NCBI GenBank assembly: GCA_020629695.1
Contig: JAHDCV010000029.1
Coordinates: forward strand, 1 to 44,613
Direction: 5' to 3'
Length of the DNA: 44,613 nt
DNA from: Acidimicrobiales bacterium
Lineage (GTDB): Bacteria > Actinomycetota > Acidimicrobiia > Acidimicrobiales > SZUA-35
Part shown: positions 30,192 through 36,329 of the stretch, in pieces
Position numbering within the stretch: position 1 is the first letter of the stretch
How the letters are laid out: each line of letters starts with the position of its first letter
The notes under the pieces: generated by a model
The model's input: the letters and a program-made list of their open reading frames with translations, nothing else
What the model was told of the DNA's origin: nothing
Database searches by the model: none
Made by a program: the position numbers and the translations under genes

Positions 30192-30602
30192 ATGGAACCC
30201 ACGGTGTTGCCCGTCCTGGAGGTCGGCACGACCTTCGATGCCGACGGGCGGGCACTGCCGACCGCCGTCGTGGACGGAACGAACCATCCCGAGGTCGCCG
30301 ATCTCGCTCGGGTCCACGCGATGGAGGGTGTCGGGGATCTCCGGACCGAGGCGATGCGTCTGCCGACCGACCGACCCGACGTCGGCGACGCCCTGCTGCT
30401 CGGCGTGCGCATGACCTCACCGGTCATCGCGATGTTCGTGCTCGTGTTCGACCTCGAGGCACATCGACCGATGCTCCGCCACGCCGGCGAGCTCGGTGCG
30501 TTGGTGATCGCCCACACGCCGCCGTCGTCGGCCGGCGACGACCATCCGGCGTGGCTGTCGATCAACCTCGACGGCGACGCCCTCGCCGCGCACCTGGCCT
30601 GA
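30192..30602 (+). CDS. Hypothetical protein
   Basis: I do not recognise this 136-residue protein (MEPTVLPVLEVGTTFDADGRAL...). The first half holds short beta-like segments, and the second half has VIAMFVLVFDLEAHRPMLRHAGELGALVIAHTPP, which looks like a buried strand-helix unit. The sequence is balanced, unlike the Arg- and Pro-rich false frames around it. The start is uncertain: ATG 30192 or GTG 30168, neither with a clear ribosome-binding site. A TAGATC hexamer at 30128-30133 could be a -10. It ends 52 bp before the glycine riboswitch promoter. Confidence 0.55.
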   Translation: MEPTVLPVLEVGTTFDADGRALPTAVVDGTNHPEVADLARVHAMEGVGDLRTEAMRLPTDRPDVGDALLLGVRMTSPVIAMFVLVFDLEAHRPMLRHAGELGALVIAHTPPSSAGDDHPAWLSINLDGDALAAHLA

Positions 30603-30653
30603 CCTGGCCCGCGGGCGGATGAGGTCGGGGCAGACGTCGGCCCGCCGATCGGT

Positions 30654-30659
30654 TACCAT
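30654..30659 (+). promoter_or_regulatory. -10 hexamer TACCAT of the glycine riboswitch transcript
   Basis: TACCAT lies 22 nt before the first paired base of aptamer 1, the distance expected for a short 5' end. No good -35 box is seen. Confidence 0.45.
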
Positions 30660-30680
30660 CGCCGCAGGTCGAACGAGGCC

Positions 30681-30858
30681 GAGCGGGAGAGTGTGTCGGC
30701 CCCGGCCGGCGCCACCGAAGGAGCAACCGCCCCGGAATCTCTCAGGTACCAGGTACCGCTCGGAGCAACGGCCACGCTGGAGAGCAGGTGATGGCGACAT
30801 CACCTCACCGAAGGGGAACAGGTCCTCGGACCCCGAACTCTCAGGTCACCGGACAGCG
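30681..30858 (+). ncRNA. Tandem glycine riboswitch
   Basis: Two glycine aptamers lie in tandem. Aptamer 1 closes with GAGCGG (30681-30686) pairing with CCGCTC (30756-30761). Aptamer 2 closes with CGCTG (30775-30779) pairing with CAGCG (30854-30858). Both contain the conserved ACCGAAGG and CTCTCAGG blocks, and a 13-nt linker joins them. The element precedes gcvT and gcvP, the standard target. Glycine binding would be expected to raise expression of the cleavage enzymes. Confidence 0.95.
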
Positions 30859-30860
30859 GG

Positions 30861-30889
30861 GGCACCAACTCGAACGAACGAGAGGTGCC
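30861..30889 (+). promoter_or_regulatory. Hairpin masking the gcvT ribosome-binding site (candidate expression platform)
   Basis: GGCACC (30861-30866) pairs with GGTGCC (30884-30889), and inside it CTCG pairs with CGAG around the loop AACGAA. The 3' arm covers the AGAGG ribosome-binding site at 30881-30885 and ends at the base before the ATG. It starts 2 nt after aptamer 2, so translational control is likely. Confidence 0.55.
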
Positions 30890-31990
30890 ATGTCCGAGAC
30901 GTCCCCGACATCCGAGCCCCGGCGTACCGCGCTCTACGACACCCATGTCGCCGCCGGCGCCCGCATGGTGCCCTTCGCCGGCTGGGAGATGCCCATCCAG
31001 TACGAGGGTGTGATCGCGGAACACACGTGGTGCCGCACCCACGCCGCACTGTTCGACGTCGCCCACATGGCCGTCGTGGATCTGCTCGGTGAGGACCCGG
31101 CGAGCGCGCTGGAGCGCCTGACCCCCGCCGGGATCACGACGCTCGACGCCGGGCGGCAGCGCTATCTGCTCCTCACCAACGACGCCGGCGGTGTGATCGA
31201 CGACGCGATGGTCGCCAACATCGCGCCGGGCCATCTGCGTCTGGTCGTGAACGCCGGTCGCCGAGACGTCGACCTGCCCCACCTGATCGCCGGACTGCCG
31301 GAGCTGGACGTCATCGAACGGACCGACCTCGGCATCCTCGCCCTCCAGGGGCCCGAGGCCGCCGCCGTCATCGAACGGGTGATGCCCGGCCACCTGCCGG
31401 GTCGCTTCCTGGACGTCGTCACCGTGGACGACCTCACCGTCTCGCGCTCGGGCTACACCGGCGAGGACGGCGTCGAGATCATCGCCCCGACCGAACGCCT
31501 CGGCGGTCTCGCCGACCGGCTGATCGCCGACGACCGTGTCGCATGGGCCGGACTCGGCGCCCGCGACACGCTCCGCCTCGAAGCCGGGCTCTGCCTCTAC
31601 GGCAACGATCTCGACGAGTCGATCTCGCCCGTCGAAGCCGGGCTCGTCTGGTCGATGCCGAAGCGCCGCCGCGAGGCCGGCGACTTCCCGGGTGGCGCAC
31701 GCGTGAGCCGCGAGTTGGCCGAGGGTCCCCGCTGGACCCGCGTCGGTCTGCGTCCCGATGGGCGCCGCCCCGTACGGGACGGCGCCACGCTCACCTCGGC
31801 CGACGGTGCCGACGCCGGCATCGTCACCTCGGGCGGTTTCGGCCCGACCGTCGATGCGCCGGTCGCGATGGGCTATGTCCCACCCGCGTTCGCCGAGCCC
31901 GGCACACCCCTCGTCGCCGAGGTCCGCGGCAAGTCCGTGGCCGTCACCGTCGCCGAGCTCCCGTTCGTCCCCGCCAACTTCGCCCGCTGA
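30890..31990 (+). CDS. gcvT: Glycine cleavage system T protein (aminomethyltransferase)
   Basis: GcvT transfers the methylene group from aminomethyl-lipoyl-GcvH to tetrahydrofolate, releasing ammonia. The 366-residue protein has [15 protein letters not shown] at the start, [14 protein letters not shown], the folate-binding [21 protein letters not shown], the FPGG segment, and the C-terminal [18 protein letters not shown]. These are complete hallmarks of the T protein. The ATG at 30890 directly follows the masking hairpin. It is separated by 11 bp from gcvP. The product 5,10-methylene-tetrahydrofolate is also the donor used by PanB. No gcvH or lipoylation gene is present in the window. Confidence 0.96.
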
Positions 31991-32001
31991 GGAACCCCGC
32001 G

Positions 32002-34893
32002 ATGACCACCCAGAACCCCACCAATGCCCACACCGCGTTCGAGACCCGCCACCTCGGTCTCGAGGGTGACGACGAGGCCAAGGCCCTCGCGCTCGTCGGC
32101 TTCTCGTCCGCCGACGAGCTGCTCCGGGAAGCCGTGCCCGAGGTGATCCGCCTCGACGACGCCCTCGACGTTCCCGGGCCGGAGACCGAGACCGAGGCAC
32201 TCGCCGCGCTCCGCCGGATCGCCGACCGCAACCAGGTCCTGACCTCCCTCATCGGGCAGGGCTGGCACGACACGATCACCCCGGCGGCGATCCGGCGGAA
32301 CATGATCGAGAACCCCGCCTGGTACACCGCCTACACGCCGTACCAGCCCGAGATCTCGCAGGGCCGACTCGAGATGCTGACGGTGTTCCAGACGATGGTC
32401 GCCGACCTGACGGGCTGCGAGCTCGCCAATGCGTCCCTCCTCGACGAGGCCACCGCGGCGGCCGAGGCCATGCAGATGTTGCGGCGTCTCGACAAGACGA
32501 AGCGCTCGGCGTTCTTCGTCGACGCCGACAGCCATCCGCAGACCAAGGCCGTGATCGCGACCCGAGCCGAACCCCTCGGTATCGAGCTCATCGTCGGCGA
32601 CCCGGAGACCGATCTGGTGTCGGGCGACGTCGCCGAGACCGTCTTCGGTGCCTTCGTCACCCATCCCGGCTCGTCGGGTCGCATCCGCGACCTGGCCCCG
32701 ATCATCGAGGCCACCCACGCCGGCGGGGCCCGGATCGCGGTGTCGACCGACCTGCTCGCCTGCACCCTGCTCACGCCGCCGGGAGAACTCGGCGCCGACG
32801 TCGTGGTCGGCTCGGCCCAGAGGTTCGGTGTGCCGATGGGCTTCGGCGGCCCCCACGCCGGCTTCCTCGCCACGGCCCAGAGCCACGCCCGCTCGTTGCC
32901 GGGTCGCCTCGTCGGGGTGTCGGTCGACGCCCACGGTGACGCCGCCTACCGGCTGGCCCTCCAGACACGCGAACAGCACATCCGCCGCGACAAGGCGACG
33001 TCGAACATCTGCACCGCCCAGGCGCTCCTGGCCAACGTGGCCGCGGCCTACGCCTGCTGGCACGGTCCGGACGGTCTGCGGGCCATGGCGCTCCGGATCG
33101 AGGCGCTGACCGACGCACTCGTCGTCCTGCTCGACGGCTCGGGCCACGAGGTCGTGTCGGGCCCCGGCTTCGACACGGTCACCGTGCGGGTCGACGACGG
33201 CGTCGAGGCCGTCCTCGCCGACGCCCGCGCCGCGGGTTTCAACCTGCGTCGCGTCGATGACACCTGTGTCGGCGTCAGCTTCGACGAGACCTCGACGAGC
33301 CACACCCTCGAGGCCGTCGCCCGGGCCGCCTTCGGCCTGTCGGTCGAGGTCGACCACTCGACGTTCACCCAACCCGACGAACCGGTCGCCATCCCCGAGG
33401 GTTTCCGCCGCACGTCGCCGTTCCTCACCGACGAGCGCTTCCACCGTTTCCGCTCCGAGCACGAGATGCTCCGCTGGCTCCGTCGACTGTCCGACCGCGA
33501 CCTCGCACTCGACCGCACGATGATCCCGCTGGGCTCGTGCACCATGAAGCTGAACGCCGCGGCCGAGATGGAGCCGATCACGTGGCCGGAGTTCGCCGGT
33601 ATGCACCCGTTCGCCCCGGCCGACCAGCGCGAGGGCTACGTCGAACTCATCACCGAGCTCGAGCGCACTCTCGCCGAGATCACCGGCTACGCCGCCGTCT
33701 CCCTCCAGCCGAATGCCGGCTCCCAGGGTGAGTACGCCGGCCTCCTCGCGATCCGCGCGTATCACCGCAGCCGCGGCGACGAGCAGCGCACGATCTGCCT
33801 CATCCCGTCGTCGGCCCACGGCACGAACGCGGCCTCGGCCGTGATGGCCGGCCTCGACGTGAAGGTCGTGGCCTGCGACGACGCCGGCAACATCGACCTC
33901 GCCGACCTCCGGGCGAAGATCGCCGACGCCGGTGAGCAACTCGCCGCCCTGATGATCACCTACCCCTCGACCCACGGCGTCTACGAGGAGACCGTGGTCG
34001 AGGTGTGCGCGGCGGTGCACGATGCCGGCGGGCAGGTCTACACCGACGGCGCCAACCTCAACGCCCTCGTCGGCATCGCCCGTCCCGGTCGCTTCGGGTC
34101 GGACGTGTCGCACCTGAACCTCCACAAGACGTTCTGCATCCCCCACGGCGGCGGCGGCCCCGGCGTCGGCCCGATCGGGGTGGCCGCCCACCTCGCACCC
34201 TTCCTCCCGGGACATCCCGAGGTCGCCGATCTCGTGCCCGGCGCCGACGACACGCTCGCCGTCGGTCCGGTCTCGGCCGCACCCTGGGGCTCGGCCGGGA
34301 TCCTGCCGATCTCGTGGATGTACTGCCGGATGATGGGCCCGGCCGGGCTCCGTCGTGCGACCGCAGTCGCGGTGCTGGCCGCGAACTACGTGGCCAAGCG
34401 CCTCGCCGAGCACTATCCGATCCTCTACACGGGTCCGGACGGCCTCGTGGCCCACGAGTGCATCATCGACATCCGTCCGCTGCACGAAGCAACGGGTGTG
34501 ACGGTCGACGACATCGCCAAGCGCCTCGCCGATCTCGGCTTCCACGCGCCGACGATGTCGTTCCCGGTCGCCGGCACGTTGATGGTCGAGCCGACCGAGT
34601 CCGAGTCGCTGGCCGAGCTCGATCGGTTCTGCGACGCGATGGCACTGATCGCCGCCGAGATCGACGACATCGCCGAGGGTCGGATCAGTGCCGACGACTC
34701 GCCGCTGCGTCACGCGCCGCACACCGCGGCCGTGGTGATGGCGGACGACTGGGAGCGGGCCTACCCCCGCTCCCAGGCCGTGCCCGGGTCGCTCGTCGAC
34801 CACTACTTCCCACCGGTGGGTCGGGTCGACAACGCCCACGGCGACCGCAACCTCGTGTGCTCCTGCCCGCCGCTCGACGCGTACGGGAGCTGA
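32002..34893 (+). CDS. gcvP: Glycine dehydrogenase (decarboxylating), P protein
   Basis: GcvP decarboxylates glycine with pyridoxal phosphate and passes the aminomethyl group to lipoyl-GcvH. This is the full-length single-chain type (963 residues), with two homologous halves. The N-terminal half has [18 protein letters not shown] and [23 protein letters not shown]. The C-terminal half has [22 protein letters not shown], the cofactor lysine Lys709 in [23 protein letters not shown], and [17 protein letters not shown] near the end. The ATG at 32002 lies 11 bp after gcvT. A longer open frame running in from 31543 lies over gcvT in another frame and is not coding. Confidence 0.97.
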
Positions 34894-35366: not shown

Positions 35367-36329
35367 ATGGACCGAGCCCTCCCGCATCTGGCCGCGACCA
35401 TCGACGACCCGACCGCACGCCTCGTCCGGGTGATGTCGTTGCGGGGCTTCGGTTTACGAGACGCCGCCGACGGCGCGGTGCTCACCGGAACCGGCGACGG
35501 CGTCGCCGTTCACGGCGAGGTGCTCGCCGGCCTCGCCGACGCCACGATCCGCACGGCGAGCGCGGAACGGGCCGTGATCCGGGCGAGCATCACCGATCGT
35601 GACGCCGACGCCGGGGGCCTCGTCTGCGGAGGAGTCGCCGAGCTGCTGGTCAGCCCCCTCGGCGACCTTCCGGCCGACGCACGCAACGCGCTCCTCGATG
35701 CACGTGCGGTCGCCCTGGTCGCACGCCTCGACGGAGGCGGCACGGACCATGCGGTCCACCCCCGTTCGGAGCCGACGACGCTGCCGCCCGATGTGCATCG
35801 GGCCGCGCTCGACCTGCTCGGTCGGGGTGCCACGGCGAGCGCCGCGCTCGATGACGAGTGGGTCGCCCACGCCGTCGTGCCCACCACCCGCCTCCACGTC
35901 GTGGGGACGGGCGCGATGGCCGAGGCCATCACCGCCCAGGCCGAGCTGCTCGGCTGGTCCGCCGGACGAGCCGACGACGTCGACACTGCCCTCGACTGGC
36001 TCGACGACGCGACCGCGGCCGACGCCCTCGTCATCCTGAGCCACGATCGTGCCGTCGACGTGCCGACGATCGCGGCGGCTCTCCGCAGCCCCCTCGGGTA
36101 TCTGGGGGCGATGGGTTCTCGCGGCACCCAGTCCGCACGACGCAGCCAACTGACCGGACAGGGCTTCACCGAGGCCGACCTCGCACGGATCCACGGCCCC
36201 GTCGGCCTCGACCTCGGTGGACGTCGACCAGCCGAGACGGCGGTGGCGATCGCGGCCGAGGTGATCGCCGTCCGCAACGGCAAACGACCGGGCTCGCTCC
36301 GGGACGGTTCGGGCTCCATCAACGGGTGA
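35367..36329 (+). CDS. XdhC/CoxI-family protein
   Basis: This 320-residue protein has the two XdhC domains. The N-terminal part (to about residue 100) contains the conserved GLVCGGVAELLVSP with Cys87. The C-terminal Rossmann part contains RLHVVGTGAMAEAITAQAELLGW, LVILSHDRAVD, GYLGAMGSRGTQSARR and IHGPVGLDLGGRRPAETAVAIAAEVIAVRNGK. XdhC proteins bind and sulfurate molybdenum cofactor before inserting it into xanthine-dehydrogenase-type enzymes. No molybdoenzyme subunit or cofactor gene is in the window, so the client lies elsewhere. A GAAGAT hexamer 6 nt before the ATG may be a weak -10. Confidence 0.88.
   Translation: MDRALPHLAATIDDPTARLVRVMSLRGFGLRDAADGAVLTGTGDGVAVHGEVLAGLADATIRTASAERAVIRASITDRDADAGGLVCGGVAELLVSPLGDLPADARNALLDARAVALVARLDGGGTDHAVHPRSEPTTLPPDVHRAALDLLGRGATASAALDDEWVAHAVVPTTRLHVVGTGAMAEAITAQAELLGWSAGRADDVDTALDWLDDATAADALVILSHDRAVDVPTIAAALRSPLGYLGAMGSRGTQSARRSQLTGQGFTEADLARIHGPVGLDLGGRRPAETAVAIAAEVIAVRNGKRPGSLRDGSGSING

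Follow-up and report, generated by a model that had tools for sequence, protein, structure and literature searches.

A hairpin over the gcvT Shine-Dalgarno sequence behind a tandem glycine riboswitch in an Acidimicrobiales bacterium: a candidate translational ON platform, conserved in part of its family

The stretch of DNA analysed here, 44,613 nucleotides from an Acidimicrobiales bacterium and hereafter the window, carries two glycine aptamers of the Rfam family RF00504 ahead of genes of the glycine cleavage system. In an Rfam search both aptamers exceeded the curated cut-off of 32 bits, and no further Rfam family exceeded its cut-off anywhere in the window. The aptamers are adjacent and separated by a short linker, the arrangement that defines a tandem glycine riboswitch, and gcvP is the probable next gene of the gcvT operon:

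30674-30768, forward strand: glycine aptamer 1 (RF00504, 59.3 bits)
30769-30866, forward strand: glycine aptamer 2, Rfam span (RF00504, 45.3 bits)
30890-31990, forward strand: gcvT, aminomethyltransferase of the glycine cleavage system (TIGR00528, 298.2 bits, above cut-off)
32002-34893, forward strand: gcvP, glycine dehydrogenase (TIGR00461, 1301.7 bits, above cut-off)

Matches to RF00504 are found in 33 of the 39 genomes of the family, in 112 of 298 genomes of the order and in 32 of 119 genomes sampled from the phylum (the source genome being included in each count); the sole other genome of the genus that was compared, 81% complete, gave no match. The best named relative of gcvT, at 59% identity, belongs to a metagenome-assembled genome of an uncultured Acidimicrobiales bacterium (L068). 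Read as its longest open frame (window 30788-31990, 400 amino acids), gcvT would begin at a GTG inside aptamer 2, and automatic annotation could therefore place its start within the riboswitch. Downstream of gcvP, window positions 35367-36329 encode an XdhC-like maturation protein, with two NCBIfam matches that both fall below their curated cut-offs.

The comparisons below draw on leaders of the same family (36 regions plus the window), of which the 31 that begin with gcvT were used; four begin with gcvP (L047, L051, L059, L061) and two were unparsed (L041, L057). Around the aptamers, the following elements were assigned:

30654-30659, forward strand: likely -10 element TACCAT (TANNNT), 7 nt upstream of P0, from the position of the motif across leaders
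30667-30671, forward strand: P0 helix, leader strand GGUCG, partner of 30769-30773, from leader-linker complementarity
30769-30773, forward strand: P0 helix, linker strand CGGCC, from the same complementarity; its CC is also Rfam's partner of G30861 and G30860
30775-30779, forward strand: aptamer-2 P1 core, 5' strand CGCUG, from Rfam; CUCUG in other family gcvT leaders
30854-30858, forward strand: aptamer-2 P1 core, 3' strand CAGCG, from Rfam and from the family alignment A1
30858-30862, forward strand: G-run, invariant in 23/23 leaders of A1, which excludes L045 and L060, whose G-run is absent or shorter

Complementarity between leader and linker, summed over 35 leaders (L039 and L041 omitted), gave a score of 387, which none of 500 shuffles attained (their mean was 324), and GGUCG/CGGCC is thereby well supported as the P0 helix known from other tandem glycine riboswitches. 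In Bacillus subtilis, according to the available part of one study, P0 is glycine-independent and required for function (PMC5666159). The first-pass annotation had begun the leader at 30681, whereas the functional leader reaches further 5', to the P0 strand at 30667-30671. Because 20 of the 35 leaders have a TANNNT box whose end lies 6-8 nt before P0 (a count for which no chance expectation was computed), the mRNA probably begins at P0, with a transcription start at about 30666-30667; a sigma-70 promoter scan of the window leader found no promoter. The P1 core of aptamer 2 comprises five pairs in the 31 family gcvT leaders, CUCUG/CAGAG, which in the window have undergone a matched change to CGCUG/CAGCG.

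Between aptamer 2 and the gcvT start lies a hairpin, here called H, which had been proposed from the window sequence and which a sequence check placed at the same positions, behind the tandem riboswitch and directly before gcvT-gcvP:

30861-30866, forward strand: outer 5' arm of H, GGCACC (sequence, fold, covariation)
30884-30889, forward strand: outer 3' arm of H, GGTGCC, its last base adjoining the ATG at 30890 (sequence, fold, covariation)
30869-30872, forward strand: inner 5' arm of H, CTCG (sequence, fold)
30879-30882, forward strand: inner 3' arm of H, CGAG (sequence, fold)
30880-30885, forward strand: Shine-Dalgarno (SD) sequence GAGAGG within H (sequence, motif)

The loop of H is AACGAA (30873-30878), and an AA/A internal loop separates the inner from the outer stem. 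The 3' arm had been said to cover AGAGG (30881-30885), and it does so for four of the five bases, A30883 being unpaired. H begins two bases past the aptamer-2 P1 core, inside the conserved G-run, the last two Gs of which are its first two bases. That H and P1 do not overlap, as also claimed, holds for the five-pair core; Rfam, however, draws an eight-position P1 (30772-30779/30854-30861) that shares G30861 with H and in which linker bases C30772 and C30773 pair with G30861 and G30860. H thus has the form of an SD-hiding platform, with the SD in a helix that adjoins the aptamer. P0, at the probable start of the mRNA, comes together with P1 and the foot of H within a few bases.

The predicted stability of H is -15.8 kcal/mol, against a mean of -6.0 for shuffled sequences (z -4.36; none of 200 equally stable). 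Against a null from the same genome, namely 125 gene starts with an SD motif in 395,339 bases (350,726 plus the window, gcvT excluded), this stability is by itself only mildly unusual and proves little: four of the 125 have a -31 to +3 region at or below -15.8 kcal/mol, and seven combine a fully paired SD with -12 kcal/mol or lower. Single-sequence stability was accordingly abandoned as proof of H, and because four other gene starts are equally stable, the case for H rests on its relatives.

For the family comparison, the P1 strand CAGAG served as anchor for the 5' arm and the SD as anchor for the 3' arm, complementarity being ignored at this step. All six outer pairs of H are standard in 19 of the 31 gcvT leaders, which span seven genera (g1, g3, g4, g5, g9, g10, g11); the 12 without the full six are both leaders of g2, the leader of g7, four of g8, L040 (g5), and L052, L056, L060 and L063 (g9), with L049 and L050, which could not be anchored on GAGG/AAGG, counted among those without. 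Across the full set of 31 the shuffle test is weaker: 145 of 186 cells are paired, compared with a mean of 137.1 when the 3' arms are dealt at random among species, and 21 of 2000 deals reach 145. The alignment A1 retains 23 of the 31 leaders: six were dropped for length (L032, L033, L052, L054, L055, L060), and L045 and L056 were omitted though their length fitted, an omission that favours the hairpin. In A1, 89.1% of the cells of H are paired against 85.8% in shuffles (3/500 as high).

Covariation of the two arms, which had been named as a check on the hairpin, was found, at one pair. Position 30863:30887 is C-G in 14 of the 23 aligned leaders, U-A in seven, U-G in one and unpaired in one; its covariation score of 0.249 is reached by one of 500 shuffles, while slid registers score 0.037-0.143. 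The U-A form occurs in g4, g5 and g10, and within g4 other species carry C-G. The remaining pairs of H show one-sided variation or none in A1, and RNAalifold on this alignment gives a weak consensus of three pairs only (-0.72 kcal/mol), with 30863:30887 again the sole covarying pair. The covariation of H is thus real but modest, a single pair among the aligned sequences. Ahead of the start codon, 20 of the 31 family gcvT leaders carry the motif GAGGT[A/G]CC, compared with one of the 125 other gene starts of the source genome.

Leaders were also taken from the wider order, where 80 regions, one per genome, were drawn from the 112 of 298 genomes with a match and 71 were parsed; L181, anchored on the wrong aptamer, was dropped from the G-run count and retained in the other order counts. 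CCC occurs at -8 to -1 in 15/31 family and 32/71 order leaders, compared with 10/125 gene starts of the source genome. Within these operons, 5 of the 18 internal gcvP starts are preceded by the triplet too (p 0.13 against 15/31), so the excess is not secure, and CCC before the start, not being clearly commoner than at these internal starts, was rejected as a specific mark. Among 101 family and order leaders, CCC ahead of the start codon is missing from all five that have no G-run (L045 and L190-L193), whereas the 96 with a G-run divide into 47 with CCC and 49 without (Fisher p 0.04).

A scan for terminator-like sites (a G+C-rich hairpin followed by a T-run) found none in 30600-31000, and an intrinsic-terminator platform was on this result rejected for the window. 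The suggestion of translational control through hiding of the SD is supported: H is kept in 19 of 31 leaders, has one covarying pair and ends right at the start codon, in a leader where the scan turned up nothing like a terminator. Riboswitches outside Firmicutes are predicted, in the available part of one survey (PMC2258182), to act as a rule on translation, and Actinobacteria are described as favouring translation inhibition by riboswitches in the accessible text of another (PMC6944388).

The aptamers, P0, the P1 core, H, the SD inside H and the start codon touching it can all be read from the sequence. Our preferred account, which we consider on balance probable, is a tandem glycine riboswitch with a translational ON platform whose OFF state is H. 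Without glycine, P1 would be loose and H complete, possibly with the extension discussed below, so that ribosomes could not start on gcvT. With glycine, the aptamers would fold and P1 would be locked, its 3' end lying at the foot of H; the foot of H would then no longer form or stack freely, H would be weakened, and gcvT-gcvP would be translated. The ON direction is suggested by analogy, because gcv genes degrade glycine and activation has been printed for Streptomyces griseus and Neisseria: the gcvTH and gcvP glycine riboswitches of S. griseus are activating according to the title of the original report and to papers citing it, and for N. gonorrhoeae gcvT the available part of the report states that no Rho-independent terminator is predicted and that glycine raises expression (PMC13104608). 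That a locked P1 weakens H we infer, and this coupling is the weakest step of the proposal, since at most one base is common to both here.

Folding of the window leader bears directly on that step. In the window model H has a probability of at least 0.996 whether unconstrained or folded with P0, with P1, with both or with the longer P1, and the SD remains paired when P1, P0 or both are forced; at most one base is common to H and the aptamer. Forcing the longer P1 costs H its outermost pair only (-15.8 to -12.1 kcal/mol), and the SD is still paired. In folds of the 31 family leaders, from the linker to 25 nt beyond the start, forcing the P1 core alters the mean accessibility of the SD by over 0.1 in six, upward in L040 and L053 and downward in L033, L045, L052 and L056. 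Strand exchange through the longer P1 was rejected as a route to an open SD, since with the CC/GG pairs at the base of P1 forced the SD was not exposed in the window. Translation drops steeply as the stability of an SD hairpin rises, and the loss of a few kcal/mol from H could for this reason still matter.

An alternative pairing of the G-run had been offered in the first-pass annotation as a way to open H. On paper it is available, C30772 and C30773 with G30861 and G30860, but the same Cs serve P0 and the SD stays paired. A broader form of this idea is that the linker CC at 30772-30773 exchanges between the leader GG, in P0, and G30861 and G30860, making P0 and the foot of H interdependent. 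The sequence allows each of the three pairings and Rfam draws the longer P1; we nevertheless regard the exchange as improbable, given the support for P0 in the shuffle test (0/500) and its glycine-independent yet required role in the accessible account of B. subtilis (PMC5666159), the survival of all but the outermost pair of H at -12.1 kcal/mol, and the fact that of the 31 family gcvT leaders seven form neither of the two extra P1 pairs and one forms only one.

In the same model the start codon, too, speaks against the preferred account. A30890 is unpaired with a probability of 0.97 in the unconstrained model or with P0 alone, and of 0.20-0.23 with P1 forced, which makes the start codon less accessible. 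Taken at face value, the state with P0 and the five-pair P1, which keeps H whole and leaves the start codon less accessible than in the unconstrained fold, would suit an OFF switch, the glycine-folded tandem completing H or hiding the start codon. This is the least probable of the explanations considered, because gcvT-gcvP degrade glycine and published reports describe activation by glycine riboswitches that precede genes of this kind.

Rather unlikely, though a stronger contender, is that H is a conserved hairpin that dampens translation without being regulated, glycine acting elsewhere, for example on a Rho-dependent transcription step or on RNA decay. Such a hairpin would explain why H is predicted in every modelled state of the window while having at most one base in common with P1, and the source genome has other gene starts with a stable fold across the SD, so that such folds are no rarity there. 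It fits less well with the start of H in the G-run beside aptamer-2 P1, with its conservation and single covarying pair, and with the joint absence of G-run and CCC in five leaders (p 0.04).

A variant of the preferred account would extend H across the start codon into a longer OFF hairpin, H+:

30850-30855, forward strand: possible 5' arm of H+, CGGACA, comprising aptamer-2 core and the first two P1 bases (local fold only)
30891-30896, forward strand: possible 3' arm of H+, UGUCCG, from the start codon to codon 3 (local fold, pair counts)

The added pairing would exclude P1 and the aptamer-2 core, including the glycine pocket, and glycine would remove the extension. A local fold of 62 nt places H+ on top of H at -25.6 kcal/mol, while in every state of the full-leader model its pairing probability is 0.0. 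Among the 14 family gcvT leaders with a UC second codon, ten have at least four H+ pairs (G-U allowed) against 5.4 expected by dealing (19/5000), a pattern that was noticed first and then tested on the same family data; in the 71 order leaders the corresponding count is 7/17 against 6.1 (2008/5000), and the UC second codon is missing from 17 of the 31 family leaders. The available part of the N. gonorrhoeae report provides a parallel, its gcvT OFF hairpin likewise taking glycine-pocket bases of aptamer 2 and, as in the window, including the region just before the gcvT start; H itself, by contrast, begins past the P1 core, so that the aptamer would be reached by the doubtful H+ alone (PMC13104608). 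Because the pattern was tested after it had been noticed and did not hold up among the order leaders, we keep pairing between the start codon and the aptamer core as a weak lead, and a switch working through H+ seems unlikely to us, the more so as H would leave the SD hidden even with glycine.

Returning to the preferred ON platform, glycine might act on it without ordinary strand exchange, through a stacking or steric choice at the junction where a locked P1, P0 and H lie within two bases of one another, or through the pairing of aptamer core and start codon just described; we hold this doubtful. For the tandem aptamers of Vibrio cholerae, the accessible part of a cryo-EM preprint places A-minor contacts of P3 of aptamer 1 in P1 of aptamer 2. 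It also describes a fold that is essentially unchanged by glycine, in a construct lacking the expression platform, which weighs against the preferred account (PMC12060979).

The system as a whole is of an ordinary kind, a tandem glycine riboswitch before gcv genes, in a platform variant of which we found no description: our literature search, in which few subscription papers were covered, found no published account of the present SD-hiding platform. The Streptomyces gcv tandem riboswitches are similar, as far as the available descriptions go, in having RF00504 before gcv genes in an actinobacterium with ON logic, but the gene order here is gcvT-gcvP and the arm sequences differ. The gcvT riboswitch of B. 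subtilis likewise has tandem aptamers, a P0 leader-linker helix and one platform before a gcvT operon; its OFF state, in the accessible text, is a Rho-independent terminator, the kind of site absent from window positions 30600-31000 (PMC5666159). If ordinary strand exchange suffices, the window would hold a routine ON switch. What it adds, for a glycine riboswitch from an order that has received little study, is an SD-hiding platform that is conserved and contains one covarying pair. The natural variants that follow the same short P1 include SD hairpins, other G-run hairpins and at least one terminator-like hairpin, and they form a usable comparison set for asking how aptamer-2 P1 signals to a platform with which it shares almost no bases.

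In other order leaders with the same kind of P1, different hairpins stand behind it, for instance, with the 3' arm placed between the SD and the start, GGAGGTC/GACCTCC in L151 and L155, GGGGAACC/GGTTCCCC in L160 and GGGAAGC/GCTTCCC in L162. In the phylum sample, L253 and L256, from two large genomes, show a related design, in which the P1 tail GGAGGCC can pair with a GGCCTCC lying after the SD (AGGAGG) and before the start codon; their 3' arm thus follows the SD, whereas that of H in the window runs across it.

Terminator-like structures appear among the relatives as well. In another family of the order, the scan lists for the gcvT leader L191, which has no G-run, a hairpin resembling a terminator that follows aptamer 2 directly and ends in a T-run, and the gcvT leaders L190 and L192 look similar by eye; compared with the translational leaders, L190-L192 may mark a change from a translational to a transcriptional platform within the order. 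In L060, at about 317-365, a long G-run hairpin (GGGGTGAAACG/CGTTTCACCCC) followed by TTTT was seen by eye, possibly a terminator in place of the SD hairpin; it is absent from the scan output, the scan having a loop limit of 8. Finally, seven leaders from one other family of the phylum (L248-L251, L254, L265 and L268; f75) carry CAGGACG as the 3' strand of aptamer 2, in which GGACG has a possible partner in a CGTCC a short way downstream, ahead of a gene starting GTGGC[GA][CA]G.
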